The notes beneath the pieces are model-generated. The model did no database searches, was not told the DNA's origin, and saw nothing but the letters and a program-made list of their open reading frames with translations. The position numbers were made by a program, and so were the translations under genes. From Lentinula raphanica (Eukaryota > Basidiomycota > Agaricomycetes > Agaricales > Omphalotaceae), in assembly GCA_027919835.1 (NCBI GenBank), contig JANVFP010000014.1:1054001-1118000 (forward strand): a DNA stretch of 64,000 nucleotides. The letters run 5' to 3'. This document shows positions 6,688 through 59,673 of this stretch, piece after piece (the stretch's first letter is position 1; each line of letters opens with the position of its first letter).

Positions 6688-6785
6688 TTTTCTAGTTGTT
6701 TTGAAGTCAGATTATTTTTCAGACATAATATGAAAAAATGAATATATGAAAAAACACAAATTTTTTGCCAGATTACATAAGACTA

Positions 6786-29179: not shown

Positions 29180-29331
29180 CACTTCAGGCACTCCTAAATC
29201 CTACCGACTTAGGGGGAAATACCCAAATACCCATGCCTAATGGGGGGGAATACCGGGTATATACCCAGTGGGTATTACCAGCCCTGGTAATACCCACCCT
29301 TCAGTGCCAGGGGTCCTGGCGAGGTAATACC
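29180..29331 (+). repeat. Left terminal inverted repeat
   Basis: 152 bp matching the right end in reverse: CACTTCAGGCACTCCTAAAT, then AATACCCATGCCTAATGGGG, then CAGTGCCAGGGGTCCTGGCG and GAGGTAATACC. It contains about 29 bp extra (AGTGGGTATTACCAGCCCTG region), itself made of GGTATTACC/GGTAATACC palindromes. Confidence 0.9.
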
Positions 29332-29937
29332 ATTGTGGGTATTACCAGGTCTATATATTTACTGACTTATGCTACTACACAATCCAGATGCATATAGCAC
29401 ATGTTGTGCTATCCCTATTACTACTATTAGATGTTTTGGCACTGGGCAGATACTCTTGTTTCTTAGCTGCTGTCAAGATGAAATTCATAAATATTATAGA
29501 CTGATTCATAACTCCTGCTTATGCATTACACAACATCCTCACTCTATATACTAATGCTATCTTGTCCCTTGTTGTGATAGGAATATCAATTTACAACCTA
29601 TTGATACTCATATTCAAGAAGAATGCAACCTAACTGGCATTATGACCTGACCTATATAGTATTACCAGACAGTTATTATATCAATTGTCATACCTAGCTT
29701 GGTAATACCCTCATGGTAATACCACTCATCTCAGGTTGGTAATATCACTCATCCTAAGTTGGTATTACCTTCCATGGTAATACCACTTATCCTAAGTTGG
29801 TATTACCTCTGATGGTAATACCACTTATCCTAAGTTGGTATTACCTCTGATGGTAATACCACTCATTCTAAGTCAGTATTACTCCTTATGGTTACACCTT
29901 TCATACTGAGTTGGTATCATGTCTCTTCATAATACCA
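29332..29937. repeat. Left subterminal region with GGTAATACC repeats
   Basis: From 29332 to 29690 I see nothing. From about 29698 the 9-bp palindrome GGTAATACC/GGTATTACC recurs every 15-25 bp, in a larger unit of about 38 bp (CACTTATCCTAAGTTGGTAT and variants), up to the end of the transposase pseudogene. The right subterminal region at 57320-57600 repeats the same motif. Confidence 0.8.
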
Positions 29938-30857
29938 CTATACTATATCATCCTGCATATCACTATACATGTCAGTTACTGTCAAAGCATCAATATGTTC
30001 TATTAAACCTATGTCCAAGTCATCTTCATCCAACTCTGAGTCCTCATCAACCTCCTCTGACTCACAGATCTGATCAACCAGCTCTGCCTGAATCTCATGC
30101 TCAACTTCCCTTAGCTCATCTGGACCAGGTCCCTGAAAACATGGTATGAATTCCGGTGGAAGTTCATTCAATGCTTGAGTCCACAAGACTGACAACCGGA
30201 TGAGATTTATGCGCCGCCCCCAAAGCTGATATTGAAGATCAAGATCTGTCATAACTCTGTAAAAAATTGATTGGTAAAACTTTTGAAAGAGAATACCTTG
30301 TGTATTACTGATACCAGCTATGACAACCTTCCATTCTTCAGAAAACCACTCCTCCATCATGAGGACCTCATGCTTCAATCGAACCAGCTCTTCATCACAG
30401 CGATCTCACAGTAGTATACCTTGTATACCTACTCTGACCTGGTCATCTGACAACCAAAGTGGAGGATCAACTGAGTCATCATCACCTTCAAGCCCACAGT
30501 CATCCCAAATTGCATCATCAACATCCAGTGAGAAAAGTTCCTTCATGGGAATTGGACGAGGAGCTATAGCATGAGCAGGAGCTCTCTTCTTAGCAATCTG
30601 TTCAGCCATCTTTTCACAGAGCTTGTTATAGTTACGAGCAAGAGACTGAATGCCCCCATCACGCTGCTTGACAGTGTCTTCAGTTGTCTATGGAGTTTGC
30701 ATTGCGAAGCTAAGTGATTATATCAATGAAATGTAATAGATAAATCCAAGTTACTATCACTCACTATTCATTTGCCGTCGAAAGCTTCATTCAAGGCAGT
30801 CACGTTCAAACTTGCGGGCTTGTAAGCACTGTCGTAAACGGACTTTCAGAGCATGAG

Positions 30858-32002
30858 CATCAGCAAAAATGTTCTGTGCTCAGGGCTACCCAACATAGAT
30901 CTCAAAGAATTCCAGGTTGCCTGGGGTCTCTAGAGTCTTCAGTGTCTTTGGTGTCTCCTGAGACACCCCCCAAAACCTAAAGCCTTCAGAGTTCCTTAAA
31001 TGTCTTTCAAAATCTCTGAATTTCTTTGGATATCTTTGAAAATCTTTGAAAATCTTTAGAAATCTTTGAATATCTCTGAGAATCTCTGAGAGTCTTCCAG
31101 AGATATTTAGATATCTTTCAAAGATTTTCCAAAGCTCTTTCATGAGTTCAAATGATTCAAAAACTTATTCAATCACTTTTGCTTCATCATATGATACTCT
31201 ATCTATTGCTCTTATATTGACTATATCTACTAATACCCATATATTATGATATACTGTATTTGAACTTGATAACTATTAATTTCGGAACACATTCTGATTA
31301 TATGTATTATAATATATTATTACAACCATTATGTATGTGTAATGTTAATAAATATAATAGATAACAATGTATATAGTATATGTTATTATAGCTATATTCA
31401 GATTTTGACCTGGTGAAGTTCTTTTTGATTGTACACAGTCCACGGTGGCAGTTCATGTGACCACCTATATTATTGACAACTGTGAGTTATAATATTTTAA
31501 CTGATATCTACACTGTATTACTATACTATACTATCTTCTAGATATTAAGATGCAATAGTATCTTATTTCATATTCAATATCTCAAATTTCAAATTTTTGC
31601 AAACACTCAAAGTCTTCAGAGAAGCTCAAATATCTTTCAAAGATGTTCAAAGATATTCAAAGATATTCAAAGATCTTTCAAAGATATTCAGAGAACATGA
31701 AAAATCTCAAGAAATCTTTAGGATATTGGAAAAAACCTAGGCAGCTCAGAGTATCCAAGCTCTCTAGAGTATCTGAAGAGCTCAGGTTATTCCCAAAAAC
31801 CTGGACCATTTTGGGGATCTCTGAGTTACCTTTGAACAACTCAGAAACAATTCTAAAGAATTTCAAGGAAACCAAATTTTGAGCCCTTTTCCCAAAGAGT
31901 TCTGAAAGTCTAGATACTTTAAACTATTTGAAAGACTTTAGACTTTTGGGGGAATCTCTGGTGTCTTTGAAAGATCTCTGGTCAGGGGTATTTTTCCTGA
32001 TG
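30858..32002. mobile_element. Long CATCAGC/CATCAGG element in the KDZ gene
   Basis: 1145 bp: the left end is CATCAGCAAAAATG, the right end GGTATTTTTCCTGATG, flanked by GAG/GAG. Removing it with one GAG rejoins the transposase frame (residues ...TDRMNA then HALKVR...). The ends are rich in imperfect CTTTGAAAATCT-type repeats in both arms; the AT-rich middle (31140-31600) is unlike the short copies. No protein is encoded. Confidence 0.8.
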
Positions 32003-32290
32003 GAGCATTCATGCGATCAGTAACAAAAGGACTTGATGCTAGATGTTGATATTCCTTTTCTCCATCAACTCCTAGTGCCTTTTCTTTTGCTGCCAATGCT
32101 GATTGTGTATTAATGAGCTTTTCTTGAAGCAAAGGAAGTTCCAATTCAGCTTCGGCAATTTCGTATGGCTCTGATGATGGATTAGCAATGATATCTTCAA
32201 GATTTTTGATGCTTTTGCGTAAGGTATCACGAGCTTTCCTAATGTGAAGGGCAGCCTCAATGGCAATTTTGCCAGCAGTGCGAGATTGAC

Positions 32291-32714
32291 CTACAAAAAA
32301 TAAGTCAGAAGATTGAAGTTAAATTTAAATGACATTGGGTAATACCAGCCATGGGTATTACCAGGCATGGGTATTACCACTGAAGGTATTACCAGCTATG
32401 GGTAATACCAGCCATGGGTATTACCAGGCATGGGTATTACCAGGCATGGGTATTACCAGACATGGGTATTACCAGCCATGGGTATTACCACTGAAGGTAT
32501 TACCAGCTATGGGTAATACCAGCTATGGGTAATACCAGACATGGGTATTACCAGCTATGGGTAATACCAGACATGGGTAATACCAGACATGGGTATTACC
32601 AGCTATGGGTAATACCAGACATGGGTATTACCAGCTATGGGTAATACCAGACATGGTATTACCAGCCATGGGTAATACCAGCAAGTGATATTTCAAGGAG
32701 GAACAAGTACTCAC
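32291..32714 (-). repeat. KDZ intron filled by GGTAATACC minisatellite
   Basis: On the gene strand the intron has donor GTGAGTACTT (32714) and acceptor TTTTTTGTAG (32291), 424 nt against 50-90 nt for the other introns. Positions 32331-32690 hold about twenty copies of GGTAATACCAGCCATG and the inverse GGTATTACCAGACATG. It is the same palindrome as in the terminal and subterminal repeats. Confidence 0.85.
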
Positions 32715-34408
32715 AAGGAGATGGCATTATTGTATGTGCCTTTTGCTCTTCCCACTGCTCATGCAAGAATTCTGGGTCATAAGTAGACCACCGCACATTC
32801 ATGTCAGCTTCTTCACGCTTTGTTTGAGTTAGCCTCCATTTTTGTGCAATCCAGAGTCCAAACCCTCTTAGGCTTTCATTATCAGCATGCTGAATTTGAG
32901 AGTCCAGTGTATAGAGCCGAATGTAGTGCTGTAATACTGTTATGACTTATAACTGATATGAAAATTTAAACATCACTTACACCACAGACCCGCAAATAAG
33001 CTATGAGTTTACTGATTGAGTGCCAAAAGCGCTCACACCCTTCGCCATCAGATAGTCCAAAGCCTGCACATTTCCGAGGATGGTAAACACATTGACATCC
33101 CCAGCCATGACCAAACGCATGGAAGACAGAAATTGAAAAGCGTATGCAAGGCAGATTGTCCTTCATGAAACCCCATTTGATACAGCTACGTTCTAGTTGA
33201 CAGGCGATATCGTAGAGGAGGCCAATGGTGGAAGTGGGCGGGATATGATTGAATAGTTGGTCCAACAGGGCAAAGGCATAGTACTGCCATTCTCCGGGAG
33301 TGGTCATGTTGACAAGCCAAAGAACACGGTCATGTCGACATAACAGGCCCATGAGTGCCGTTGAGTCGAAGAACTGAGTGCTTGCCTTCTCACGATACCC
33401 ATCTGCTGCTGTGAAGCTGTCATTGCAGGCATCGAGAACTGACTTGGGAACCTGTAGGCCTTCTTCAACTTCATCATCGCCGGTACTCCTAGCAGTTTGG
33501 GTAGGACAAGGTCTTTGTTCTTTGACTATGTTTTTCCATTCGTCGACATGCTCCTGAGCCAGAAAAACACTCCGCGGGTGAACATGTTCTGGATCCCGTG
33601 GCTGCTTGTTATGTTTTTGATTGAAACAGGCGTCAAGACAGACAATAAAACTAGTACTGACGGCATGTCAGTGTGCTAGTTTTCTCCATCCATGGAGGAT
33701 AACTTACCCATCCGTGAAGTCAGAGCTTCCACCAAAACAAAATGGGCATCGAGCCCGAAGGTATTGAGATGGCCATGTCCTGCTTGTGTTCGGTTCTTCC
33801 TCGTCATGCTGAGCTCGCTTCGAAGGTCTAGCAAGTTCTGCTCCTGTCTCTGGAACTGGTGTAGACGGAGTACGAGCTGACATTGTAGACAGAGTAGGAG
33901 GTGAAGGCATAGATGGAGTAGGAGGTAAGGATGGGGTATCGGTTATCTGCTGGCGTTGTATTTCCAGATAGGAGTCAACGAAGTGGTTGGTTGAGTTCTG
34001 TAGAGCGTTATACCACTGTAGAGCCATTGTGAAACAACAACGAAGAGGGTCCTAGGTCAGGGTGAGCTATAACACATATCCTTGATGATAAACAGGAAGT
34101 TATACCTTTCCTTTCATCTGATAACCCTGCCCCTTGAGAAAATCTTCGATTGTACTGCTCACGCTGCTGTGGTTGGGAGAGATGCGAAGAAAAAGTCATG
34201 TCACAAAATCGAGAACCCGTATGTCAACAGCTAATGTAGGCTCCTTGGGTGCACTACCAAACAGCCCACGTTCAATGAGTTGGACCGGAGCAGGACGGCA
34301 TTCACAGATATCTATGCTGAGCTTCTGAAGTTCTGCAGTGCGAGATGTTAACACTTTGATTTTAGGCAAGGTATCTAACTCACTGTTGAACCGCAATACC
34401 ACTATATC

Positions 34409-35971
34409 TGTTATAAAGTATAACACCCCCCAGCCTTCACTAATTTTTCCTAATTTTTCCCTATTTTTTCTGAGCCTTTACGAGCTCCAGAACGATGATA
34501 ACCCCTATGAACTGCATGAATGCCGAACCGGCGCTAATTCGGCATCGGCATTTACCCTCGGCGTTTAATCTCTGATCTCTTGTTTTTTCTCACTTACCAC
34601 CACCTCTCCGTTCCCTTTTTCATCTACTCCTTTGTTTCCTCAAACGTTCAAGACCCACGGAGCTTTTAGAAGGATGAGGAAGGACTTGGGAACTACCTAG
34701 AGGAGTGGAGACTTCGGCTCAAAGTCTGCCACTCATAATCCTTCGTGCATAATCCGTTCGTTTGATTACACTTCCTCATTCATTCTCAACAGGTAGGGAG
34801 ACGCGTTGTCGGCGACCGTCTATTCCTCGTCTCCATGCCGGGCTCATAACGTTGCATCGGCGACTCTTTTCTATACAACTCACCCCAGATCTCAAGGCGC
34901 CCTGGAATGTCGAGTCAACGTTTTGACTCGACGAATACTGATCTTTCTTCACCCACGAAGACTCCGGAGCCCCGCCTGTAGCCTCTCTATCCTTTTCCGG
35001 ACTTATACGACAGTAGGAACTTGCAACCATCGTCAAACCCTGCCAAAGGACCACGACATCCTCCGGCGACTCCTCCAATGCATCATCAATGATCGTTCGA
35101 GTAAACCACCTTACGAAGAACCCCGGTGCGACAACTGGACACCACGAACAGCCGTTCGTGTTGCTTTCATTATGGAGGCCCCGCGAACGCCTCCTAAGTG
35201 CACCCAATGGGCAGCACCTCTTCCTGGATCCCTCTGTCTCTGTAGCACTTCTGCTTGGACCCTCCACCCTGACTACCCAGAATCGCTGTTGGACTCCTAC
35301 TAACTCCTTCCCCAACCAGAAACCCAGGAACCTGGCCCAAGGAATGATGCCAGTGACATTTCGCCAAGGCGGCCGGGTTTCCCTGTTTCCTCTGACTAAC
35401 ACTAACTCCCTCCTTTCTCCTTAGTTCCGGCCTTGGACGACACGAAGGCTCATTCCTCCTCCCTCCTTTGGACCTTCACCTCCTGATTAGTCGTGTATTG
35501 CTACATAACGGCCGGGTCAATTCGTCACCATGTCGACCCGTGTCTGTTTTGTTATGTTTGTTTGATGACGCCGGATGGTTCCAGTAACAATGCGTATGCG
35601 TCGCAGCACTGGAACGTGTCATCGTAATTACTTTACGGTGACGTGTTCCCTCGCCGACATTCCTTTACCTACAAACTTTCCTTATATATCTACGTACTCA
35701 GAAACCTATAAATACTACCTGTATCCTCTGTATCTGGCCCCCCAGATCAGATATTTTCAATCTATTTGCAGTTTCCTAGTCTTCCTTGTGCTCTAACTAA
35801 CCTTGTAACAACACTAAGCTTCAAAACCAGAACCTAAGTCTCCCCTAATAAATCCAAATACTCGGTGTAGAATAACTGCTTAGCAGTCCTTCATCGTATG
35901 TGTGGATTTTTGTGCTCGTAACCCTCGAATCTCGGTACACTTGAAGGCTAGAGCATAGCAAGTACCTAACA
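34409..35971 (+). mobile_element. Solo LTR inside the KDZ gene
   Basis: 1563-bp solo LTR: TGTTATAAAGTATAACACC at the start, GTACCTAACA at the end, flanked by ATATC (34404-34408, 35972-35976). Deleting it and one ATATC restores the transposase frame. It is diverged from the LTR at 22403 but shares end sequences, a CpG-rich middle, a TCGACCCGTGTCT stretch and a TATA box (35707-35714). Confidence 0.9.
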
Positions 35972-36468
35972 ATATCTAATTTTCTCTCCTTCGACCCATC
36001 ACACACACAAGCTCGCTGTTCCACCAGGATATCCTGACTGAGATTTCCGGATTCTCGCAGATACCTCATATATGGAGCTATCAGTGTCGGTATCACCTCG
36101 TTCTGCCAGCGCAGTGTCTGCGCCAGAGCTTTCTGTCGATGTGAGGACAGAACCGGAGGCTCGGAAAATGTGATGCTTGCTGTGGGGTCCTCAAGCCTTT
36201 GTTGTGTGTCAAGCCTTCATTGAGTGAGAGACTGGAGATCTACATGTGGTCGTTCCAAAAATCCAAACTGACCCACAGGTGGAGGTGAATTCCGTTGAGA
36301 GAGTACGACACCATTGGCACCATATAAGATGGGCCGAGCTGTCCGCTTAGACGGTGATTTGGAGAGTGGGTTGTGAGGGAATGCATGATATGCAGACTGT
36401 CCTGAAGACGAAGGACTCGAAGGCAAGTCTTGACCGAGGAAGCCTTTCAGTAAGTTCAACCGGGACAT

Positions 36469-36684
36469 TGACTCCAAGTGGTAGGTGACGGTCTAACTTC
36501 TAAGTCAAGTCTAGTTTAACGTCATTTCAGACGCCCATTTGTAAATCTGTCATACAAAATACAACTTCATTCACTCAGCACTGAGATGATTCTCAATGGG
36601 TAACGACACATAAGCTACATTGAGGTCTACCACTACGATACAAGTATGTGGACTGATACGCTACAAGAAAAGATAGTACAAATA
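36469..36684. other. Short gap between two minus-strand genes
   Basis: 216 bp between the end of the Spt5-like gene and the KDZ start. It must hold the KDZ promoter; no clear TATA box or other motif is seen. Confidence 0.3.
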
Positions 36685-39012
36685 TTATTTTGATTGTCCA
36701 GAAGTCTTGCTTTCATATTCGCGACGACGTTTTTCTATGGTAGCATTGTTCCCTGCACATCTATCTTCCTTGCCCTCCCATACTGGAACTAACCATGCAC
36801 GATCAACAGTCACAGGTGGCCTATCCAAGAGGACTTCCTGATCATACTGTTCGGCTCGTCCCTTGCGTCTAGTCGTACGCACCGGCTGAATTATCCATTT
36901 AGATGTACCCGGATCTTCTTTATTGTAGACCTGTCCGACACGCCGCCTCATTTGCCCACTCAACTCCGGTGGAAAGATGAGCACAAAGAGCAGGTTGCAT
37001 TTACCAGGTTTGGAGGGAACGAGTTTCAATTTATCATCTTTGAGATTGGGCAAAAGGGTGAAATCAGAGAGAAGTTCCTCGTGTGTTGTTTTTGAGCCTC
37101 CTTGACCAACATCGCGGTAATATACAAGATGGTTATGGATGCGGACGCGATATTCCTTCGTGGAATCTGACCGATATTGCCTGATCTTCAGGGACATCTC
37201 ACAATTGCCCAAGCCAATCTTGAGGTTTCGGTTCGTGATCCAATGACCGACAGGTTGCGGGAGAGGCAAGAATGATGATTCTTCTTCAGGTGTTGGCGTT
37301 GGCCGCCGTGATGGCACAGGAGTTCCACTGGCGTGAGTCGTCCACTGCTCTTCTTCCACTACCAGTTGAAGCCAACCAAGACGCTCATCTTCGGCAATCT
37401 CATGCGCTCGATTCATTTCTCTAAGTACCATCAGTGGCTGTTTACGACCTGGGAGCCGAAACATCTCCATCTCTTGAGGACCATAGATAGGAAGGTAGTC
37501 GTCACGGAATGTATAGTAGGGTATCGAGGGTTGCATTGTGGATGGGGTGTCCGAGGGTATTTCATACCAAGGACTGCTGTCATGCAAGAATTTATAGGTT
37601 CTGAACAGTGAGTCACACTATCAGCTATGTCAAGTATCGGAAATAAAGAGAACACTCACTGCAGTCTCTGGATGAGATCGTAATCCACCCATTCTTTGGG
37701 TATGGAGGCGTTAATGGTGGCGTATTGCACATAGATAGCCAGCCCACTCTTCATCGATCGATCCTCCTTGATATCCTTGACCCAACCATGGTATCCTTTG
37801 CTTCGATGCGCCCCAATCACTATAATCTCCACGTTGATCCATGGGTGTAGAAAACTGGTCTTGGAGCCCGCATAAATTTTTGTGGGAGTGCTAGATTCAC
37901 CGAACGAGAGCGATGAACGGTGCATCTCCGTAAGAGGAGTAGCCGAGGATGATGGTAAAACATTCCAGGCAGAGAATGATCCAGAGTTCAAACATCGCAG
38001 CGAGTTCACATGAATATCGACCCCCTGCAATCAAAAGCAATGAAGTCAAAGGCTTAACAAAAAGAAGATGAGAACTCACGGCTTCGAATTGACCTAGCAT
38101 CACTTGAGCTACCCCAGCCTTACTGTCCAGTTCCGTTACAGAACCAACCAGTCCATAAGCCGGCAAACGTTCCCAAGAGCTAGCCTGTTGAACAACTTTT
38201 CCTCGAGCAATTATTTCTACTGTATCTCCGACTTCGAAGATCTTGCGTATGTAGATTTTTGAAACACGCAGTGTTTCCGATACAGCTTCTCCATCTCATA
38301 CGCAGGAGGATATAACCTCGCAGTCACGATCCTCGACGGAATGAATGACGGCGTGCGATCCGGGTGAAAATCCATGATCAGAGAGTATTCGAGTGTCAGA
38401 TTGGCCGATATGAGGATTGACGAGAATGACAGATTCGCCGGCAAAGAACACCCAGTCAGAGGAAGGTGGCATGCGTAAATGGACAAAAGGCCACGATATA
38501 ACAGGGTGACCGCTTTGGTGAAAAAGCGAGTCTAGATTTGCTGGGAGTATATCGGCAAGAGTTAACGAGGCCCAAGAAATCTTCACCACTGCCAGAGAAC
38601 CAAAGAAATATTGCTTGAGGAATGTGCACCGTTGAGATAGCACTCCGTGAGTACAAGTCAACGGTGAACCACAGTCTTCGCGTATGCACCACCTGTAGTA
38701 AGGTTTGACGTCGTGATTATCGACCAATTGGTCAGCTAAGCTGAACGAAAAAAGTCTTGGGGGAGGTCTTGACTGCCGTTTATGTTTCTCGCCAACTTTT
38801 CGCAGAATGAGGAGGCGGGGCACCAACAGTACCCAACAAAAGAACCAATTTGGATTGGTTTCACCCTCAGGAAACTCAAGTTTGTAGACCAGGCCAACAT
38901 CGCCACTATAGAGCCGGTGTTTGGCGTTGACGCGCACCCAGGTTCCGGCTTGGACTATATCCTGTCGAGCCTGATAGCGGAGGAGGAGAAGATTGTGGTT
39001 CAAGGCTAAAGG
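36685..39012 (-). CDS. Spt5-like multi-KOW protein, N-terminus missing
   Basis: Four exons with clean GT-AG introns: 39012-38302, 38241-38080, 38024-37661/37660 and 37600-36685. Four KOW-like segments are seen: GTWVRVNAKHRLYSGDVGLV, then VGDTVEIIARGK ... GLVGSV, then HPWINVEI ... KGYHGWVKDI, then a C-terminal one (SGQMRRRVGQV). Spacing and order resemble the KOW array of Spt5, the elongation factor that clamps RNA polymerase II to DNA. The NGN domain that precedes the first KOW in Spt5 is absent, because upstream of 39013 the frame runs into the fold-back element with no ATG. It is a paralogue of 50530-52235. Similar Spt5-like genes occur as multicopy families in mushroom genomes (general knowledge). 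Role here unknown; possibly aiding transcription of the element. Confidence 0.7.
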
Positions 39013-42000: not shown

Positions 42001-42072
42001 ACTCCTGTTACTTTGCAAAGCATATATGGAGACTTCTCAGTCTACTTCGTGAAGTTCTTACAGCTACAGCTG
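39013..42072. mobile_element. Fold-back element 1 (3.06-kb palindrome)
   Basis: Two arms of about 1.5 kb, inverted copies of each other centred near 40542. The translated frames at 39717-39899 and 39944-40168 reappear unchanged in reverse at 41368-41186 and 41141-40917. Ends are CAGCTGTAGCTGTRAGAACT. Near the ends are several CTTTGCAAAG / CTTCGCAAAG palindromes and CCGGGCAGGCCAG. Each arm has about ten loose 35-45 bp repeats containing AACACACTTAACAATGAAAA, then GGGCGCTTATGGGCGCTTAT. No enzyme is encoded and no target duplication is seen. Such a sequence can form a very long hairpin. Confidence 0.9.
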
Positions 42073-42846: not shown

Positions 42847-43160
42847 ATGCAAATGCATTGTCGGTAATATTGCGTATAATCTTGTATTCTATGTAATTTC
42901 TGTCTTGTATTATTTTCATGTAGCCTTATCATTAAACACCAATTCAATGACCTACTTCTCATTCTGAATGAGAGATCAGTTCGACGCGTCCGAAACGACG
43001 TTAAACTATTCATGCGATTCAGCGACAATGTCACATGTCACAAGGACTCGTTGAGTGACTTTCAACCCTTGAAGCTTCCAACTCTCTGTCGGTGTAAGTG
43101 AATCTCAGAATTAGGGCAAAACTGTTGTGTTAACTTTATTCAAACAGGAAGAAACATAGA
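42847..43160. other. Intergenic region of module A
   Basis: 314 bp between the Spt5-like fragment and the acidic-protein start. It shares a GTTAAACTAT patch with the corresponding 340-bp gap of module B (52236-52575). It should contain the terminator of the first gene and promoter of the second; neither is clear. Confidence 0.35.
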
Positions 43161-49100: not shown

Positions 49101-49256
49101 TCATCTCCGCCACTTGCAGGCCCTTCACGCCTTGCAGATTTAGGAAAGAGGAAGAGAAGTCTGAAAGATGACAGATCTCAGACTCAATCCTCATTGAAGA
49201 GAAGAAAATTGATGAAGTTCCGTAAAGCCATAGCCACCAGTAGAAGGAATATGTAG
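43161..49256 (+). pseudogene. Acidic multi-exon protein A, split by a fold-back element
   Basis: Exons read from the sequence: 43161-43364, 43413-43532, 43587-43691, 43748-43830, 43883-44729, [fold-back 2], 47766-47790, 47841-48064, 48116-48431, 48481-48780, 48838-49256; every intron is 48-57 nt and GT-AG. Omitting 44730-47765, the exons total 2643 nt, an exact multiple of three, giving 880 residues. With the element in place, translation stops at a TAG in its first bases. Parts: basic N-terminus; about 44000-44500 helical region; Glu/Asp-rich stretch (44590-44700); conserved domain with GRSLSAFFAGDEIGKAAKQR and ELEYWTE; basic C-terminus. It is a paralogue of 52576-55867. No known family recognised. 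The charge pattern suggests a nuclear, chromatin-associated protein, which is an inference. Confidence 0.75.
44730..47765. mobile_element. Fold-back element 2 (3.04-kb palindrome)
   Basis: Same organisation as element 1 but clearly diverged: ends CACCTGTAGCTGTAAAATC / inverse of CAGCTGAGGCTGTAAAATC, subterminal TTGCGAAGT and CGCAAAGTAG palindromes, CCGGGCAGGCCAG, AACACACTTAACAATGA-type repeats, and near the centre GGGCGCTTATGGGCGCTTAT. Arms are near-identical inverted copies (frames at 45600-45842 and 46693-46935 translate alike, as do 45091-45339 and 47155-47403). It is inserted in the acidic gene with no target duplication. Confidence 0.9.
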
Positions 49257-50529
49257 GGTGTTGTAGATTTTAGTTAAAATTGCTAAAACTTCTGCTCAGA
49301 TATCTGTGTTCAACATAGTATGGTGCATAAGTGTACCTCAAAAAATTCCTACTTTATTGCCATCAGGAAATTCCTACCTCACAGCTGTAAGGGAATTCCT
49401 AGTGTAAGAAATTCCTACCTGGCCAAATTTTTCCCTGAGGAAATTCCCAGCAGGGAAATCCCCACTATAAGAAATTCCTACCAGGGGAATTCCTACCCGG
49501 GAAATTCCTAGTATAAGAAATTCCTATCAGGGAAATTCCTAGCCAGGTGTCTACCTACCTAACTTGGTATATTTGGGGGTTGCCTGAAGAATTCCTAGTA
49601 TAAGAAATTCCTATCAGGGAAATTCCTACTACAAGAATTTCCTATCAGGGAAATTCCTAGTATAAGAAATTCCTATCAGGGGAAATTCCTACTACAAGAA
49701 TTTCCTATCAGGGAAATTCCTAGTATAAGAGATTCCTATCAGGGGAAATTCCTACTACAAGAATTTCCTATCAGGGAAATTCCTAGTATAAGAAATTCCT
49801 ATCAGGGGAAATTCCTAAGCAGGGAAATCCCCACTATAAGAAATTCCTAGTATAAGAAATTCCTATCCGGGGAAATTCCTATTACAAGAATTTCCTATCA
49901 GGGAAATTCCTAGTATAAGAAATTACTATCAGGGGAAATTCCTGTTACATATCAGGGAAATTCCTAATTATAAGAAATTCCTATTAAAGAAAATCCAGGA
50001 TTCAGTATAAGAAATTCCTATCAGGGGAAATTCCTAGTATAAGAAATTCTTACCAGGGTAAATTCTTAGTATAAGAAATTCTTACCAAAGGAAATTCCTG
50101 TTATCAGAAATTCCTATAACAAGGGAAATTCCTGCCCAAGGGAATTCCTACCTAAGGAAGTTCCTACCCAAGGAAATTCGCACCTAGGAAAATTCCCTGA
50201 GGTTTGAGCCTATTTAGGTAAGGAATTATTCCCTTTGCTTGGTACAAGGAATCCCCTATTTGTTTGACTACTGATAGGGATTTTCCTACCCCAAAAATGC
50301 CTGAGGATTTTAGCCAACTTAGGTAAGGAATTTCACACCTGGTTTAGTACTAGGAATTTCCTACTTGTTGGACTACTTGGGAATTTCCCCATAAGTGTGG
50401 AGTAAGAAATTCCTAGTCTAAAGGAATTTCCTGGGATCAGAATTTTCTGGGAATTTGGACCTACTTAGGTCAGGAATAAGCCAGGTGTCTACCTACCTAA
50501 CTTGGTATATTTGGGGGGTTGCCTGAAGT
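49257..50529. repeat. GGAAATTCC-type minisatellite between modules
   Basis: About 49340-50470 is made of imperfect repeats such as AAGAAATTCCTATCAGGGGA and AAATTCCTAGTATAAG, around the palindrome GGAATTTCC/GGAAATTCC. A 45-bp sequence containing CCAGGTGTCTACCTACCTAA and GGTATATTTGGGGG occurs at about 49543-49583 and again at 50483-50528. The second copy ends TTGCCTGAAGTG, the same right end as the 29-kb element. Module B starts directly after it. No gene. Confidence 0.8.
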
Positions 50530-52235
50530 GTGGAGGGTGACGAGGGTGTAATTCAAAGAGATGGGACACTGGAGTGCGAGGTTTTATTCTCGCGCAGTCA
50601 GGCCAATGTATCTGTTCTGAAACGTCACTTGCGGAAGAAATGGAGATTGGCTCAAACTGTCGAGCTATCTCCTCACACGCCAGAGGTTGTGCTACGTACA
50701 CGAGAGCAGTTGGGTTACTCTGGAGTCTCGACACTTCATGAAGACCATTTCATGCCGGCAGGCCAAACTGGGATCATTACCAAGGTCAGATTGGATGAAG
50801 TCGATGTATGGATAACAGAAATCAACTCCATCTGCACTGTTCATCCAAACTGTGTTCGAGAAGTGGTCGAATCTTCATTTACTCCCGGTCTAGAATCTTG
50901 CTTTCAACCCCGGTTGTCTAACGTGGGTGCTACGATAGCTCTGAAACCTCATCTTCTGGCTATTCAGAAGGTTGGAAATCTCGATCAGAAGGCTGACTTG
51001 GCCAACATCGCACACTCCTTTGTATCTCGTGAAGTGAATCGTTTCAACCTGCGAGGCGGTGAATATCGAGCTCGAAATCGTAGCCCAGAAGTAACTTCCA
51101 TGCTTACTTCCATTGATCAAATGACCTCTTTCGTCAACCCTACCATTCACTCCACCCTTTTGGGTTATGTAGCAACTGAAGGCGCGGTTCCTCATACAGA
51201 GTACACTGGGCGGATCCCTTGGTTGCATGTAGAAGTCAAACCAATCTCAGGGGAGCGAAAAGGATATCTTGGCAGGGTATTTGATGTCAAGTCTGAATGG
51301 AAGAATACCAAGAGTGGTCTCCTTGTCCTGATCCGATTCCAAAATCCTTCTTTGATTGGCAATCTTGACGAGTGGTATGACTATGATCAACTCCGAAGGG
51401 CAGATAACGGCGGGTTCATTCATGAATCCACCTTCACGAAGCAGATCAGCTCATACTTCAACTTTCGGATGGGTTACATACCTCGGCATCGAGAAGATGA
51501 GCTCCCGGTCACAGATCTTTCCACTCAATCAGCAGATATGGATGGCATCACTGGACAGCTGTTGACTACAGTGTTCCGGCATGGGATCCCAGCTCTCGTA
51601 CACCAAATCCGTATGCTTCGTCTTCGTCTTCGTCTTCGACCATGTCTACTCCGCCTGCGAAGCATTGGATCTTGGATCCTCGAATTTGCAAAGGTCTTGC
51701 AGGGAGGGAGATCTGGGTCAATGTTCGATCTGAGAAGGATCCTGTTCGGGTTTCTTTGCATGTTGGGTCTAGTGGTGAAATCGAGATATCTTGTCAGGAC
51801 AATCATGTAGGAGGCTCCAAAGTCAATGTCGCTCAACGTTCGGTGGATTACAGGGCCATTCTATCCAATCCTCGATGCAGTAAAGTCACGAAGGGTCATT
51901 CAGCAAGTGGTCTTTACATCATATGTGAAGGTGAACATACAGGAAAGCTTGTCCGACGGGCGAATTACTTTGCTGAAGGAAATCTCTGGGTGCTACAAGT
52001 AATGCGCTCCGTATTCCATCCGGACCGGAGAAAGCAATTCTCAGTAGAGGTTGAGAGTGATGACCGAGTGCTGAAGAGGATCCCAGGCAATGCTCTCGCC
52101 ATGGTTCACGAGGCACGATCGGACTCTGATGCTGCAAACAAACTCATGTGCATTATTCGTAAAGCTGCAGGTGGCAACACCAATGGTTATGATGTAGATG
52201 GACATGGACGCATAGTTAAGATAGGCCACGCATAG
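50530..52235 (+). pseudogene. Spt5-like multi-KOW protein B, 5'-truncated
   Basis: The first frame is open from the TTGCCTGAAGTG junction to about 51550 with no ATG near its start; a second frame carries the protein to a TAG at 52233-52235. The switch lies between about 51430 and 51600, through an unassigned intron (possible acceptor ACTGGACAG near 51558) or a frameshift. KOW-like segments: GQTGIITKVRLDEVDVW, PWLHVEVKPISGERKGYLGR, ASGLYIICEGEHTGKLVRR. The middle aligns with exon 3 of the minus-strand gene (PWLHVEV/HPWINVEI, EWYDYDQL/EWVDYDLI), the end with 42073-42846. The NGN region and first KOW are missing, apparently cut off by the sequence to the left. The next gene, 340 bp downstream, has the same orientation. 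Confidence 0.65.
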
Positions 52236-52575
52236 ATATATCTATAGTTTTTATATACCAGATTATATGAAAATGTATTTTTTGAACACACTAATTCTCA
52301 ATTCTGCTGGTTTCAAAGTAATGTTCGTGCGCAATCACGTTAAACTATGAGAATTGTTGAGAGCTTGAAAGTTTGATCGTGCGCAATCACATTAAACTAG
52401 ATCTTGGCATGCCGTTGATGCCGCGTGCACAAACTCAGTGGCGTCCGGCTAGTGCTTTATTCGTGGCAACGAGCAAGAGTTGATTATTGAGGTAAGATTC
52501 TCTTTGTGGTCATTGAGGTAAGGTTCTCTTTGTGGTCTATAATATTATCTACATTTCTGAATTTTCGATGAAAGA
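52236..52575. other. Intergenic region of module B
   Basis: 340 bp with a direct repeat: GTGCGCAATCACGTTAAACT near 52328 and GTGCGCAATCACATTAAACT near 52379, and a second small repeat around TTGAGGTAAGRTTCTCTTTG at about 52487-52535. These may be control elements of the acidic gene; this is inference. Confidence 0.4.
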
Positions 52576-55500
52576 ATGCCACCTCGAACTCGAGCAGCAC
52601 TGGGAACTAGGAAAACGCGCTCCAACAATGTCCCAGATACTGAGCAAACCTCGCTGTCATCAATGGTTCAGCCAGCCAAAAGAAATAAGAGGATAGCTGA
52701 CACATCAGAGGGGAAGGGGAAGGGGAAGGGGAAAGGAAGGGGAGTGCAGCAAGAGAAGGGAAAGGCAAAAGGGAAGAAAAAGGGGGAAGAGCCCAGTGAC
52801 GGTGAAATAGAAACGGTAAGCTCAATCTGAAACTTACAATAGCCTGGACCTGATTCATGTCTCTGATAACACAGGAAAAGAGTAGCGAAGATGAAAGTCC
52901 TCAAGCTGTGAAGTCCACTACTGGTCCTCCCAAAAACTCTGCTACTGCTGTCGAAGCTTCTGACTTGGAAGTCGAAGATAGCGCATCACGGTCTCCCTCG
53001 CAGCTTCCACTTCCCACTCCTTCAGCAAAGAAACCACAGGCTCTTGCCCGCCAAGATATTTCATCTACCATGGTTCCTCCTCCTCCTACACCTGTATCTT
53101 CCCGCAATACCAATCTGGAGGCATTCAGAGTTCTTCAAGCATTCATGGCCAACGAATATACATATCCTTCTGCCGAGCTCGCAATCCAACACATCTTCGG
53201 TGATGCATACCGTGCCTCCCAGTGGGAGCCGTGGCTCTCTCGTATAACCAGTATAGAGCCCGATGATGAAGCGTCATTCCAGTCTGTCAGCGGGGAACTT
53301 GATGCTGAAATATCTCACCTCGAGCAGGAGAAAGTCAACCATGAGGCTAACGAGGATGAAGCGCAGTCGGGCAGCCCTGGTGCAGTCAACAATACAAAAG
53401 ATGCTTCACTTGCTTCACTTCCTGAGGATGATCAAGTTGAGAGTCTCTGCGCAGATGCGATGCTATGTGATCCCGACCAAGCGTGCCAGGTACTGGGAGG
53501 CTTTCGTGACTATTTGCAGGATGCTGTCACGAAGAACTGTGGGCAGAACATCGATTTCAAAAAATTCAATGTCTGGAAGTTAGCGAAGGCATATGCCCCA
53601 TCCGACTATCAACTTGCTCGCCAGTCTGCACTTGTTGAGTGGCAGGAAATTGTCAATGAGAATATGGCTGCATGCTTGAAAGGCAAGGACGAGGATGGTG
53701 ATAGCAAGGGTGGTAAGAGCAAAGGTGGAGAGAGTGGAGGCAGAGAGAGCGACGACGAGAGCGACGATGAGGATGAGGACGACGAAGACGACGAGGACGA
53801 CGATGAGGACGACGACGAGGACGACGAGGACGACGATGACAACGCCAACGACAACAGATATAAGCGGAAACGCCATGACAACAAACGCCGCAACATCAAA
53901 GCAAAGGCTAAGTCGGGTGCAGCACCTCCTCTCGCTCAAGTGAAAGCCGTGACTTTGTTTTCTCAGTTCAATGAGGAGGAGGAGTTTGAAGACAAAGAAG
54001 AAGATGACGAGGAGGAAGATGAGGAAGAAAAAGCTCTTGCTGTGCCAAAAAGTCATGTTCGGGGCTTGACAAAGGAAGTTCGAGCAGAGCTTGATCAGTG
54101 GCATGTCGAGTATAAGGAGGGTATCAAGAAAATCGCAGTCAACGCAGGGATCGATATGCATGCCTGCTTCACGTACTTGAACCAACAACTCCATCCTCCA
54201 CGCGCCATCAATCGTTTCAATGCCTTCAAAGCGCATTATGCTGAATATGGTACCATTAAGAAAAGCTCAACGCGTGAGTTTCTTTTGCATCGATAGTCAC
54301 CGTATCTGATTGTCCTGTTATTAGAATCACTCTCGGATTATAACAAATTGCTACGAGAAGAATATTGGAAAACGTTGGAGTCCCGTCTGTCTGTCGGTGA
54401 ACTTCAGGATCCGAAAGCAAGGAGCCGGGCGATGAAACCTGAAGTGGACTGGTACAGAGAACAGGTCAAGAACTATATAGAGACTGCGAAAGAATCGGGA
54501 AAAATCAAGGGGACTGTGAAGGCTATGATACGTCCTGTGTTAACATTGGTCAGTTCATTATTCTTGTCGGTTCAACGTTGATTTGCTAACACTTGTTTTA
54601 CAGGCTGAGAAGCTTTACGAGACTTCGGGCTACCATATGTTGGGATGGTTGATCAACACCAGTGGTGATAAGTTTGGACGCAGTGTCAGTGCATTTTTCG
54701 CTGGTGATCATATTGCGAAAGCTGCAAAGGAACGGTTTGGTTCCAAGATGGAGTCACAAGTGGCGGACATGGAGACGATGTTCAAGATGCTCGAACTGGA
54801 GAATCGACATGTTGATGCTGCGGTAGCAAAGCTTCATAGTGAATGCACTGCGGGGCCCAAGGAGAGTAGAAGGGATGTGGAGCGGTGTCTTACGAACACG
54901 TTTTTTCAACATGACATTGGTATGTTGCTTGTTATTCTAGTGTATACATTTCTGACTGAGCACATTCAGATCAATTTTTGGGCAAGGAGAGCAATATCAA
55001 ACTCAATACTTTCATCGACGCCGCAATGAAGCAACACATACGTCTCCTGAACTGGCCCATTGCTTTTTTTCCCAAAGCCAACATTGATACCTATAAGCAG
55101 ATTTCCGCAAAAGATGTCAAGACTATTTTCATTCCTCGAAAGGCACATTTTGATCACTTATATGCGATTCAAACTAAGGCTGTCGATCCAGACGAGGATA
55201 TCGAACTGAATACTACATATGGATTTGAGTACTGGACAGCAGGTCTGTATCTTTTTTATTGATGCTCCGACACTTCTCAACATTGTGCATAGGGGAACAA
55301 GCTCTACGTGTCGAAGACCAGGGTGCTGTACCTTTGGTTGTTGATATCAACAATAATGTGGTGGTGACAGTTGATGGGGCCAAGGCATGGAAACTTGAAG
55401 CAGCTGCGAGGAAATTACAAAGGAAGAATGCCTCCAAAGCTCCTGATATGACTCTGAATGCTGTACATCTTCCGGCTCCTCCTGCACATACTCCGGCTCC

Positions 55501-55867
55501 TCCTGTACCTGCTCCGGCTCCTCCTGTACCTGCTCCGGCTCCTCCTCCTGCACATACTCCGGCTCCTCCTGTACCTGCTCCGGCTCCTACTCGCATTCAG
55601 GTCCCTGTACATGCACCTGCAGCTGAAACTCATGCACATGTGCATGACCGTGCAGTTACAGCTCCTGCTGCAGCTCCAGGTCGACGCCCTTTGCCTCGTC
55701 CTTTGCCTCGCACAAATGCAGTTGCAGGTCCTTCTAAATTGGGAATGGATCATAACATGAAGCGTGGACGCGAGGAAGAACTACCTAGTGATCGACTATT
55801 GAAGAAGGCAAAAGGTAAAGGTAAACAAAAGGCATTGACAATTGATCTTGAAGAGTTTCGCATCTAA
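52576..55867 (+). CDS. Acidic multi-exon protein B, intact
   Basis: Six exons: 52576-52815, 52875-54273, 54325-54548, 54604-54919, 54970-55242, 55293-55867. All introns are GT-AG and 50-59 nt; the exons add to 3027 nt, one frame, 1008 residues. Regions: basic N-terminus with a GKGKGKGK run (likely nuclear localisation); an N-terminal helical region; a long Asp/Glu stretch (about 53740-53850) and a second one (53970-54035); a conserved domain (GRSVSAFFAGDHIAKAAKER, FEYWTA) shared with gene A; a Pro-Ala repeat (PAPPVPAPAPP type, 55470-55590); and a basic tail. I do not recognise the family and assign no enzyme activity. Acidic and basic blocks suggest a chromatin or histone-binding role, or a partner of the Spt5-like protein encoded just upstream. 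Confidence 0.8.
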
Positions 55868-57320
55868 GTCAGCTTGTTATTCATATCAGTAGATTTGAAA
55901 TATATCTTTGTTAAACTAGTTGTTAAAAACAGGAGTGATTTCATATAAGGTTAGATGAGGGGACATCCCAGATGAGGGATATCCCAGGTTGGGGATATCC
56001 CAGATGAGGGATATCCCAGGTTGGGGATATCCCAGATGAGGGATATCCCAGGTTGGGGATATCCCAGATGGGGGACATCCCAAGTGAGGGATATCCCAGA
56101 TGGGGGACATCCCAAGTGAGGGATATCCCAGATGGGGGACATCCCAAGTGAGGGATATCCCAGATGGGGGACATCCCAAGTGAGGGATATCCCAGATGGG
56201 GGACATCCCAAGTGAGGGATATCCCAGATGGGGGACATCCCAAGTGAGGGATATCCCAGATGGGGGACATCCCAAGTGAGGGATATCCCAGATGGGGGAC
56301 ATCCCAAGTGGGGACATCCCAGGTGCAAGGGACATCCCAGATGAGGGACATCCCAGGTGCAAGGGACATCCCAGATGAGGGACATCCCAGTTTAGGAAAT
56401 ATAAAATATATCTTTGTTATTTAAAGTGATTCCATGTGAAGTTTGAAAGCAAGAGGGACATTCTAATGATATGAGATATGGAACAGGAACTATCCAAAAA
56501 TATATCTTTGTTATTTAAAGTGATTCCATGTGAAGTTTGAAAGCAAGAGGGACATTCTAATGATATGAGATATGGAACTATCCATGATATGTCATATATG
56601 TAGGTGTGACTCTGAGGGACATCCCAGATGAGGGACATCCCAAGTGAGGGATATCCCAGATGGGGGACATCCCAGGTTGGGGACTTCCCAGATGAGGGAC
56701 ATCCCAAGTGAGGGATATCCCAGGTTGGGGACATCCCAAGTGAGGGATATCCCAGGTTGGGGACATCCCAAGTGAGGGATATCCCAGATGGGGGACATCC
56801 CAGGTTGGGGACATCCCAGGTTGGGGGATATCCCAGATGGGGACATCCCAGGTTGGGGACATCCCAGATTGGGGATATCCCAGATGGGGACATCCCAGGT
56901 TGGGGACATCCCAGGTTGGGGGATATCCCAGATGGGACATCCCAAGTGAGGGATATCCTAGGTGCAAGGGACATCCCAGGTCGGGGACATCCCAGGTGCA
57001 AGGGATATCCCAGGTTGGGAACATCCCAGGCTGGGGACATCCCAGAGGGACATCCCAGGTTGGGGATATCCAGATGAGGGACATCCCAGGTGCAAGGGAT
57101 ATCCCAGGTTGGGGACATCCCAGGCTGGGGGACATCCCATAGAGACATCCCAGGTGCAAGGGACATCCCATAGGGACATCCCATGTGTGAGGGACATCCC
57201 ATAGGGACATCCCATGTGGCTTGGGACATCCCATTGGGGAATTCCCTGGGATTTTCAGCATGTTAGATTGGGGAATTACAAGTCTTGTCCTAGCTAATAT
57301 GATATTTTTTTGTGGTTGCC
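55868..57320. repeat. GGGATATCCC minisatellites
   Basis: Two arrays, 55958-56395 and about 56610-57235, of the palindromes GGGATATCCC and GGGACATCCC separated by CAGATGAG, CAGGTTGG or CAAGTGAG. The first includes a regular 28-30 bp unit (GGGATATCCCAGATGGGGGA, then CATCCCAAGTGA). Between them, an 80-bp stretch containing ATATATCTTTGTTATTTAAA occurs twice (56400-56484, 56501-56578). Reading frames across these arrays are low-complexity by-products of the repeat. Confidence 0.9.
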
Positions 57321-57600
57321 TAAAGTGGGTAATACCAGTAAGGGTAATACCAGTCAAGGTAATACCATAGTAAGGTAATACCAGCCAGTGGTAATACCAT
57401 AGTAAGGTAATACCAGTCAGTGGTAATACCACTGAGGGTAATACCACTGAGGGTAATACCAGTGAGGGTATTACCAGTGAGGGGTATTACCAGTGAAGGT
57501 AATACCAGTGTGAGTAACACCAGTGAGGGGTATTACCAGAGAACATAATATCAGTAAGGATATAGCCCATTAAAGTAATACCAATACCAAGTGAAAGTAA
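57321..57600. repeat. Right subterminal GGTAATACC array
   Basis: About fifteen copies of GGTAATACC or GGTATTACC with spacers such as AGTCAGT and AGTGAGG; the same palindrome as in the left subterminal region and the KDZ intron. Just before it, GGTTGCCTAAAGTG resembles a decayed CACTTCAGGC end. Confidence 0.85.
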
Positions 57601-58417
57601 AAGTAATACTTATTGATGGTTATACTTAGTAAGAGATTGTAAACCCAATTGAAGGTGATATGCATTGATAGTAATATCATGACCGGGTAAGGGTATTCCC
57701 AAGCAAGGAGTATAGCATGCATGCATGCCAAGCTAATACCAGTGTTGTCCATGCTTGTAGTGTTTTCATGCTTGTAGTGTTAACCATGACTGTAATATAT
57801 GCAACAGAAGAAGTAATACAATTCTCTCAATGCTTGTCCTGGCGAAATCTTATCTGCTACTAGTAAATATGCACTAACTGATGAGCTGACTGACAAATAT
57901 CTTACTGACAAATATCAATTACTAAACCAGGCTAGTGAATATGTATACTGCAATAAATGGAGGTAAGTGGAGCCAATGTAGAATGGTTAAGATAATGGTT
58001 AAGATTACACTACACCACATTGAGTGATATATGTTATGGAAGTTTTTTGAGACAGTTCGTATTAATCAATGCCATATGCCGCAGAATATACCTAATGAAA
58101 AGTTGCCTTAATAGTAAGACCAGCTTTATGGACCAAAGAGAAAGAGGGTGGGTGTGTTTTGTAATGTACATAGGGTATGCTTATAATAACACAAAAATAT
58201 ACATTATGTATCTTGAAATGGAGAGCATATGTAAGCATGAACAGTATGAGTGTTGTATCAATGCTAAAATTCAAAGCAACAGTAGGATAATATTAAATAA
58301 CACTGATGTGTAAGAAATGTGGTTAATTCATGAAGAATAAAGCAGTAGTAGCATAATAGTAACACTGGTGTGTAAGGAATGTGGTCATTTGATAAAGAAT
58401 ATGTAGCATAGGAGGAT
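57601..58417. other. AT-rich stretch with no recognised feature
   Basis: About 0.8 kb between the right subterminal array and the right terminal repeat. A 97-codon frame at 58020-58313 has no protein-like features that I can support. A GTGTAAGRAATGTGGT phrase occurs twice near 58310 and 58370. Confidence 0.4.
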
Positions 58418-58544
58418 GGTATTACCTCGCCAGGACCCCTGGCACTGAGGGGTGGGTATATACCCGGTATTCCCCCCCATTAGGCATGGGTATTTTGTGG
58501 GTATTTCCCCCCTAAGTTGGTAGGATTTAGGGGTGCCTGAAGTG
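58418..58544 (-). repeat. Right terminal inverted repeat
   Basis: 127 bp: reversed, it begins CACTTCAGGCACCCCTAAAT and follows the left repeat through AATACCCATGCCTAATGGGG to GAGGTAATACC, lacking the 29-bp GGTATTACC insertion of the left copy. Confidence 0.9.
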
Positions 58545-59391: not shown

Positions 59392-59673
59392 CATCAGGAA
59401 AAATATTTTCATCTCTAGAGTCCCCAGAGATACCCCCCAATTCCTAGGCTGCTCAGAGATTTTTGTAAACTTTGAAAGATCAAAAAACATCCTAGAGATC
59501 CTGAAAGATCCTGAGAGCATCTGAAAGCACCAGAAAGCACTAGAAAGCACCGGAAAGTACCCAGAGAATTTTTAGAAGCTTCAAAGAACTCAGATACTCT
59601 AGGCTCTCTGAGACTACCTAGGAATTGGGGGGCATCTCTGGAGACTCTAGAGATGAGAATATTTTTCCTGATG
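59392..59673. mobile_element. CATCAGG inverted-repeat element, copy 6
   Basis: 282 bp, flanked by CT/CT, splitting GAGACT-CTGGAAACC of a satellite unit. Near-identical to 26489-26760 and in the same orientation. Confidence 0.88.

Follow-up and report, generated by a model that had tools for sequence, protein, structure and literature searches.

A 29-kb KDZ insertion in Lentinula raphanica is probably a nested, partly deleted stack of transposons with three-gene relatives

The closest described systems are KDZ transposons of Laccaria and Cryptococcus. In the sections of the Laccaria report used here, Kyakuja-1_LB and Kyakuja-2_LB, of the KDZ superfamily, have 7-bp target duplications and 5′-CA..TG-3′ termini, and the Kyakuja families are described without terminal inverted repeats and with TET/JBP (PMC12730594). 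The terms "KOW" and "Spt5" are absent from the main text of that paper. For Cryptococcus, the corresponding sections give KDZ1, KDZ2, and KDZ3 a length of ~9-11 kb, inverted repeats of 139-241 bp, a KDZ and CxC1 transposase, and duplications of 8 bp (KDZ1) or 4-8 bp (KDZ2 and KDZ3) (PMC12810828); the term "KOW" is absent from the text. Outside transposons, excerpts of a plant study describe KTF1 as an SPT5-like factor (PMC10229537).

We analyzed a 64,000-nt stretch of L. raphanica DNA (the window; contig JANVFP010000014.1, positions 1,054,001 to 1,118,000), in which 29,365 bp (29180-58544; C14:1083180-1112544 in contig coordinates) are bounded by the ends of an outer KDZ transposon. This transposon inserted into a 148-bp satellite unit, duplicating GGGGCCC. 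The 7-bp duplication is perfect and lies directly outside both ends, and the termini are CA..TG, with CACTTCAGGCAC beginning at 29180 and GTGCCTGAAGTG stopping at 58544. The terminal repeats aligned at 77% identity over 158 columns, with inner arms of 43 nt (100%) and 44 nt (98%). Joining the flanks without the element restored the 148-bp unit. With satellite units of the same window standing in for an unoccupied site, the left 28.8 kb of the window held 116 HSPs to the joined flank, and 82 of them spanned the junction at nearly full length (best ~92%). As a control, the occupied left junction gave 112 HSPs, none reaching beyond base 76 of 148 (the border is base 74). Thus, the matching terminal repeats, the flanking GGGGCCC copies, and the interrupted satellite unit noted in a sequence-only reading of this DNA were all borne out.

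We estimate a probability of about 80% that the insertion is a nested, partly deleted stack of Kyakuja-like KDZ elements with three-gene relatives. Its parts are an outer element (29180-39012 plus 57328-58544), two sister elements (X and Y), two palindromes, and a probable solo LTR (Table 1). The sequence-only reading had included neither the 3-kb palindromes nor the probable LTR, nor that the pieces come from three different KDZ elements.

Table 1. Features of the insertion, in window coordinates
Feature	Position	Strand	Basis or detail
Target duplication GGGGCCC, left copy	29173..29179		7 bp
Left terminal inverted repeat, outer element	29180..29333	+	repeat alignment
Left part of outer KDZ element (KDZ gene and KOW 3′ part)	29180..39012	-	92-98% identical to C25:447037-462253 (C25a) outside two later insertions
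Outer KDZ transposase gene, in pieces, two insertions inside	29938..36492	-	Pfam KDZ/CxC1; gene order read from C25a
Later insertion, GAGCAT at both flanks	30861..32002	.	missing from C25a
KDZ core exon, 233 aa	32966..33667	-	Pfam KDZ E=1.3e-55
CxC1-like exon of outer KDZ gene	34196..34477	-	Pfam CxC1
Later insertion TG..CA between ATATC copies, probably solo LTR	34409..35971	.	alignment with relatives
Outer element's truncated KOW (Spt5-like) gene	36685..39012	-	sequence runs on past 39012 in C25a, C7a, C25b, C16
Palindromic element 1	39013..42072	.	arms 1,362 nt, 98%; outer KOW gene to its left, X KOW gene to its right
Sister element X, right part, terminus GGTTGCCTGAAGTG	42073..50529	+	comparison with relatives
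X's KOW gene, 3′ part	42073..42846	+	93% to C1:1613590, 87% to C20:320587
X's acidic-protein gene, divided by palindrome 2	43872..49256	+	comparison with relatives
Palindromic element 2	44730..47765	.	self-alignment and comparison with relatives
X's subterminal minisatellite, GGAAATTCC units	49408..50377	.	
Sister element Y, right part, terminus GGTTGCCTAAAGTG	50530..57327	+	terminus identical to element C14:578137-594261
Y's KOW (Spt5-like) gene, 3′ part, two overlapping frames	50530..52235	+	upstream unbroken in C24, 95% over 1,087 columns
Y's acidic-protein gene	52561..55867	+	
Y's subterminal minisatellite, GGGATATCCC/GGGACATCCC units	55959..57239	.	
Outer element's right end, GGTAATACC minisatellite	57328..58544	.	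96% to C25a over 1,144 columns
Right terminal inverted repeat, outer element	58416..58544	-	repeat alignment
Target duplication GGGGCCC, right copy	58545..58551		7 bp

The predicted KDZ transposase is present, as the 233-aa exon scored 188.9 bits with Pfam KDZ (cut-off 26.6). The CxC1-like exon scored 26.6 bits against a cut-off of 26.9 (E=7e-6; CxC2, E=7e-4) and is itself disrupted by the insertion that is probably a solo LTR. Since insertions interrupt the outer transposase gene, any movement of the window copy would depend on transposase supplied by another copy.

In the genome, these ends occur as 14 inverted pairs, including the window pair, all with termini CACTTCAGG..CCTGAAGTG (5′-CA..TG-3′). 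A perfect 7-bp duplication bounds 11 pairs and is absent from three; seven of the 11, the window's among them, enclose a KDZ transposase. Because both ends flank KDZ genes at six other duplication-bounded sites, the earlier proposal of a KDZ-type element with true ends survived, in agreement with the KDZ domain, inverted repeats, and perfect duplication in the window. Less rearranged relatives with these ends are 14.5-17.8 kb long, and the inverted repeats of one (C7a) align over 274 columns at 97%. On the 7-bp duplications and CA..TG ends, we file the window element as KDZ and Kyakuja-like. As it has inverted repeats, unlike the two Laccaria families (a trait that may not define Kyakuja), we go no further than "Kyakuja-like".

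Six other duplication-bounded elements (C25a, C7a, C25b, C16, C14:86554-101089, and C14:578137-594261) carry all three genes, KDZ, KOW, and acidic. Five share this order and the orientations, while in one the KOW gene is inverted; a further element, C1a, has KDZ and acidic genes without KOW. Across the genome there are 33 KDZ hits; within 20 kb, an acidic homologue accompanies 26 of them, and a KOW hit is lacking for 19. The cargo had been described as Spt5-like KOW and acidic proteins: both are present, but with six other elements carrying them they are not unusual cargo. Their distribution argues that they are a regular gene set of this KDZ family and were not captured. Our literature search on KOW or Spt5 with KDZ found no report of such a companion. 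TET/JBP cargo, not seen in the sequence-only reading either, was dismissed, as none of 28 genome matches (five above cut-off) fell within the 29-kb insertion.

Pfam KOW6_SPT5 matched the Y KOW protein below cut-off (E=0.0015; 18.9 versus 27 bits), and none of the three Spt5-NGN matches in the genome coincided with a companion. A KOW profile (A3), which also took in one KOW relative without KDZ, aligned with residues 190-331 (NGN-KOW1) of host Spt5 (C42:206727) with a score of 82.2, compared to 29.1 for the reversed control and 22.3 for the best of 30 shuffles. The KOW companion and host Spt5 also share the motifs PGTW..KG.Y.GD and RPPxRLFxF. As the companions fall below the Spt5-NGN cut-off, we call them Spt5-like rather than Spt5. 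In PDB sequence searches, two KOW queries had no match, others matched SPT5 weakly (E=0.25 and E=0.2), and the KOW relative without KDZ matched SPT5 at E=0.0034. The acidic protein had no Pfam match above any cut-off and matched NAP1 at E=0.66 in PDB. The 2014 PNAS paper that defined KDZ reportedly describes an HMG-domain companion of these elements; the acidic protein does not fit that description, as HMG searches of it gave nothing up to E=10. AlphaFold models were of low confidence (mean pLDDT 29.5 for KOW protein P0011 and 32.8 for acidic protein P0022). Searches with the companion proteins recovered 16, 12, and 24 proteins, all from Lentinula, among the 7,989-7,994 candidates sharing most words.

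Tentatively, the Spt5-like protein, possibly together with its acidic companion, may assist RNA polymerase II in transcribing the element where the DNA is silenced and rich in repeats, which would parallel the role proposed for TET/JBP oxygenases in other KDZ elements. The larger proposal is more doubtful: a Lentinula KDZ lineage would possess, in its own Spt5 paralogue and acidic partner, a dedicated elongation or anti-silencing module as a transcription-based TET/JBP counterpart, with the palindrome family sharing its machinery and driving nested-copy collapse. With the same anatomy, the companions might serve transposition directly rather than transcription, for instance as proteins that hold or package the long subterminal repeats. 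They travel within elements, long minisatellites lie just inside the termini, and some DNA transposons require a second DNA-binding protein. We nevertheless find this slightly less likely than the transcription role, as what is recognizably conserved in the KOW protein is NGN-KOW1, through which Spt5 contacts the polymerase.

It is improbable that the KOW and acidic genes are passengers with no transposon role, descended from an old host gene family that was trapped in repeat clusters and held near KDZ by nesting and duplication. Such a history would fit the lack of any KDZ hit within 20 kb for 34 of 49 KOW and 13 of 36 acidic hits, as well as a separate KOW family with many copies without nearby KDZ. 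The one such locus examined, 10 kb on C8, gave only a weak integrase-core match (E=0.043). Against passengers stand the six three-gene elements, five of them alike in order and orientations, and the long open frames kept in some copies (933, 934, 928, and 655 aa).

Junctions inside the insertion point to the nested stack. Internal element termini lie at 50529 (X) and 57327 (Y), and the left ends of both are missing from the window copy. The KOW and acidic copies of X and Y belong to two further subfamilies, each with terminal sequences of its own. The palindromes, ~3 kb each with CA..TG ends and without a recognized transposase, consist almost entirely of their arms (~1.36-1.46 kb). Of nine palindrome pairs, four have a 7-bp duplication and five do not; a further insertion, in C25b, has a 7-bp duplication and an empty site in C7a. 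The two flanks of palindrome 1 are each contiguous in relatives, but in different genes, while the left flank of palindrome 2 had no counterpart within the 281 bp of relative sequence compared. Palindrome 1 bridges the KOW genes of the outer element and X, which makes it likely that sequence between two palindromes was deleted. A core related to the palindromes also sits in small CACTTCAGG-ended elements.

From the junctions, we infer that Y inserted into the right subterminal minisatellite of the outer element and X into the KOW gene of Y. Palindromes, with 7-bp duplications, would have entered the outer and X KOW genes. Deletion between them would have removed the 5′ end of the outer KOW gene and the outer acidic gene, and would have cost Y and X their left halves; a single palindrome, its two flanks no longer matching, would be what remained. 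In the sequence-only proposal, a single large KDZ element captured Spt5-like and acidic genes from the host and moves as a 29-kb unit. This is consistent with the intact ends and duplication and with the satellite unit being restored, and an assembled stack could in principle be mobilized together, but we rejected it as highly improbable once the internal termini of the two other subfamilies and the shorter three-gene relatives emerged, the arrangement having no second copy among the 14 end pairs.

If the Spt5-like companion is functional, mushroom transposons would have co-opted a core elongation factor of RNA polymerase II. How elements evade silencing when they lack demethylases could then be tested directly, and the three-gene relatives provide a defined system for doing so. 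Read as a nested stack, the locus shows palindromic elements rearranging transposons into an apparent giant cargo carrier, and warns against calling giant cargo elements from a single copy.

The palindromes resemble foldback or MITE-type elements, a known non-autonomous class, in their CA..TG ends, 7-bp duplications, and absence of a recognized transposase, but differ in being palindromic over nearly their whole length and in the related core inside CACTTCAGG-ended elements. The KOW companion is alignable with host Spt5 over the NGN-KOW1 block; unlike host Spt5, it is carried within transposons and is too diverged for Pfam Spt5-NGN. With Cryptococcus KDZ1-3, the window family shares a KDZ transposase and inverted repeats (the CxC1-like exon in the window scores just under the CxC1 cut-off), but its duplications are 7 bp, and the sections cited name no companion genes for the Cryptococcus elements (PMC12810828). 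With Kyakuja of Laccaria, as described in the sections cited, the window element shares a KDZ transposase, 7-bp duplications, and CA..TG termini; in contrast to Kyakuja, the window element is without TET/JBP, and its family has inverted repeats and carries Spt5-like and acidic genes (PMC12730594).

The element (29,365 bp, 29180-58544; window, C14:1054001-1118000) begins with CACTTCAGGCAC and finishes with GTGCCTGAAGTG, and both ends abut a 7-bp duplication, the GGGGCCC that the sequence-only reading had placed outside them. We reconstructed the empty site by fusing 74 bp from each flank and aligned this 148-bp query to the leftmost 28.8 kb of the window. Among 116 HSPs (best, ~92%), 82 spanned the junction nearly full length, while alignments of the occupied left junction, the control, stopped by base 76 of 148 (border at base 74). 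Thus, as had been read, the element interrupts one unit of a satellite. This 148-bp satellite forms long arrays at 1-29179 and 58545-60000, with higher-order periods of 263, 296, 411, and 444 bp. Its right flank holds a chromodomain fragment (60650-61180; Pfam Chromo E=1.6e-10), probably a retrotransposon remnant. A Ty3-type retrotransposon occupies 1161-8652 (gag and pol frames, 1454-6711), bracketed by tandem-repeat sets at 1161-1474 and 8339-8652. Since these sets match in scores and consensus, the element is probably a young insertion with two near-identical LTRs.

A genome search with the 153-bp left end (49 candidates, 40 scored) gave at least 42 matches: 14 pairs in inverted orientation, 12 ends with no partner, and 2 short matches to part of the query. 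Inspection of the flanks of all 14 pairs, including C14:86554-101089, revealed identical 7-bp direct repeats at 11 (the chance of a given 7-bp match is ~1 in 16,000) and none at C27, C44, and C7:1244415. KDZ matches lay inside 7 of these 11 duplication-bounded pairs; both ends thus surround KDZ genes at six places besides the window. Strong-tier KDZ matches were absent from the other four (C17, C1b, C22, and C42; 1.4-4.0 kb). This anatomy supports a mechanism in which the elements would transpose via their inverted ends, with 7-bp staggered insertion.

Coordinates of features in the window and of related loci
Feature	Position	Detail
7-bp duplication	29173-29179 and 58545-58551	GGGGCCC
KDZ-containing pair, window element	29180-58544	duplication-bounded
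KDZ-containing pair, C25a	C25:447037-462253	duplication-bounded
KDZ-containing pair	C16:441653-465190	duplication-bounded
KDZ-containing pair, C1a	C1:167679-176354	duplication-bounded
KDZ-containing pair, C25b	C25:117083-134846	duplication-bounded
KDZ-containing pair, C7a	C7:1030533-1045083	duplication-bounded
KDZ-containing pair	C14:86554-101089	duplication-bounded
Later insertion	30861-32002	GAGCAT on both sides
Later insertion	34409-35971	TG..CA termini, ATATC flanks; disrupts CxC1-like exon
Palindrome 1	39013-42072	arms 1,362 nt, 98% complementary
Palindrome 2	44730-47765	inside X acidic gene
Small elements with palindrome-related stretches	C17:475864-479483, C1:422871-426439, C42:232179-236132, C22:988421-989858	
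KOW matches without KDZ nearby	L047 (C8:1136001-1146000), C1, C4, C18, C30, C31, C39, C40, C61, C65	
KOW/acidic protein pairs		P0002/P0018, P0003/P0028, P0006/P0019, P0009/P0017, P0013/P0026

The idea of a single 29-kb element with cargo was not supported. The window copy is a stack of elements, in which the outer element is followed by the right-hand remnants of two sister elements, X and Y, that have termini of their own. The window and C25a, a relative with the same ends, share 29180-30860, 32003-34409, 35969-39012, and 57327-58455 at 92-98%; the gaps at 30861-32002 and 34409-35971 are later insertions, the second probably a solo LTR. Subfamily X (42073-50529) has a KOW part that shares 93% identity with C1:1613590 and 87% with C20:320587. 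Its terminus, GGTTGCCTGAAGTG at 50529, is matched by the CACTTCAGG end at C1:1596879 (74% over 744 columns). Y starts mid-gene in KOW sequence at 50530; the C24 counterpart of this stretch (95% over 1,087 columns) is unbroken upstream and differs slightly right at the junction. Y and the element ending at C14:594261 both terminate in GGTTGCCTAAAGTG; in Y this lies at 57327, and the outer-element minisatellite follows directly. Neither X nor Y retains its left part.

To the left of palindrome 1 lies the KOW gene of the outer element and to its right that of X; the former is uninterrupted in C25a, C7a, C25b, and C16, the latter in C1. This position between two different genes is expected if two palindromes recombined with loss of the DNA between them; if C25a and the C14 element are a guide, ~25 kb would have been lost. 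The right flank of palindrome 2 is 74% identical to C1 over 108 columns, and its left flank has no match in the 281 bp compared. The palindromes form a repeat family (ends 88-100% identical among the best 40 of 235 candidates). Perfect 7-bp duplications (GTAGAGT, GGAGCCC, ATAGATG, and GCTGGCT) occurred at four of the nine pairs with inspected flanks and were not found at the other five. A related 3,104-bp palindrome, with duplicated GCTGCTT, is present in C25b and absent from C7a. The CA..TG ends and 7-bp duplications suggest that the same kind of transposase may mobilise the palindromes. Small elements with CACTTCAGG ends and 7-bp duplications also contain palindrome-related stretches.

When the KOW and acidic parts of C7a served as queries, both genes were located inside C25a, C7a, C25b, C16, and C14:86554-101089. 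In window orientation, the order in C25a, C7a, and C25b is KDZ (-), KOW (-), acidic (+). Stop codons interrupt the C25a KOW match, the C16 and C14 acidic matches, and the C16 KDZ match. C1a has KDZ and acidic genes without KOW, a deletion relative to C25b. A sixth three-gene element, C14:578137-594261, has different ends (CATTCCAGG..CCTAAAGTG), the 7-bp duplication ATTTATC, and the order KDZ (-), KOW (+), acidic (+). In most aligned stretches, C25b and C25a share 70-78% identity, but 2,072 columns in the KOW gene reach 94%; on these identities, that part looks as if exchanged between their subfamilies.

Genome-wide, we compared 33 of 93 KDZ rows (identity ≥50%; 58 weaker and 2 overlapping rows left out), 49 KOW matches (after manual merging of rows from one locus), and 36 acidic matches (all 14 rows of one search and 22 of 37 from a second, with 15 secondary rows merged). 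Acidic matches lay within 20 kb of 26 of the 33 KDZ matches and KOW matches within 20 kb of 14; conversely, KDZ matches lay within 20 kb of 23 of the 36 acidic matches and 15 of the 49 KOW matches. The 20-kb zones around KDZ matches make up no more than 2.4% of the genome, and the matches are not independent, as some loci are apparent duplicates (C3/C60, C10/C64) and some KDZ matches are fragments of a single locus. Five KOW/acidic protein pairs from Lentinula species have equal-sized contigs or neighbouring locus numbers. Spt5-like KOW genes also form a second, multicopy family that has no KDZ match within 20 kb; a weak integrase-core match lies nearby in the one 10-kb locus inspected, and the family may belong to another transposon type.

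Pfam was nearly silent on both companions. Profile A3 (11 KOW proteins, one from a KDZ-free locus) aligned with NGN and KOW1 of the host canonical Spt5 (C42:206727; Spt5-NGN E=7.5e-23) over residues 190-331, scoring 82.2; the narrower A1 scored 54.8 (both pairwise scores, not database E-values). Reversed, host Spt5 scored 29.1; the highest score among 30 shuffles of its first 600 residues was 22.3. The outer-family KOW protein and host Spt5 also share a stretch around RPPPRLFSF, and the UniRef names of P0006, P0007, and P0008 start "Chromatin elongation factor." Two diverged Spt5-NGN matches besides the canonical Spt5 exceeded the cut-off (C25:426330 and C44:21308). The acidic protein resembled nothing known in the domain and sequence searches run, and structure models of both companions were unusable.

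Spt5 NGN-KOW proteins bind RNA polymerase II, and we infer that the KOW companion could do so to the transposon's benefit. Because its recognisable conserved part is the polymerase-contacting part, we consider a putative role in the transcription of silenced repeats more likely than one in cutting and joining.

In the parts of the literature searched, we found no Spt5 or KOW companion of KDZ elements; the KDZ-defining 2014 paper may mention one. On C33 (C33:174761 and C33:165964), a TET/JBP match over the cut-off lies ~9 kb from a KDZ match, a pair that may mark a TET-bearing KDZ element elsewhere in this genome. From the portions of the published accounts consulted, Marasmius has KDZ and Plavaka elements (PMC8290104), CxC2 clusters precede intact KDZ elements in Pleurotus (PMC7641404), and Cryptococcus KDZ1-KDZ3 have 139-241-bp inverted repeats with 4-8-bp duplications (PMC12810828). 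Kyakuja, as described there, carries TET/JBP genes (Kojima 2025, PMC12730594); it shares 7-bp duplications and CA..TG termini with the Lentinula elements, but differs in having no inverted repeats.
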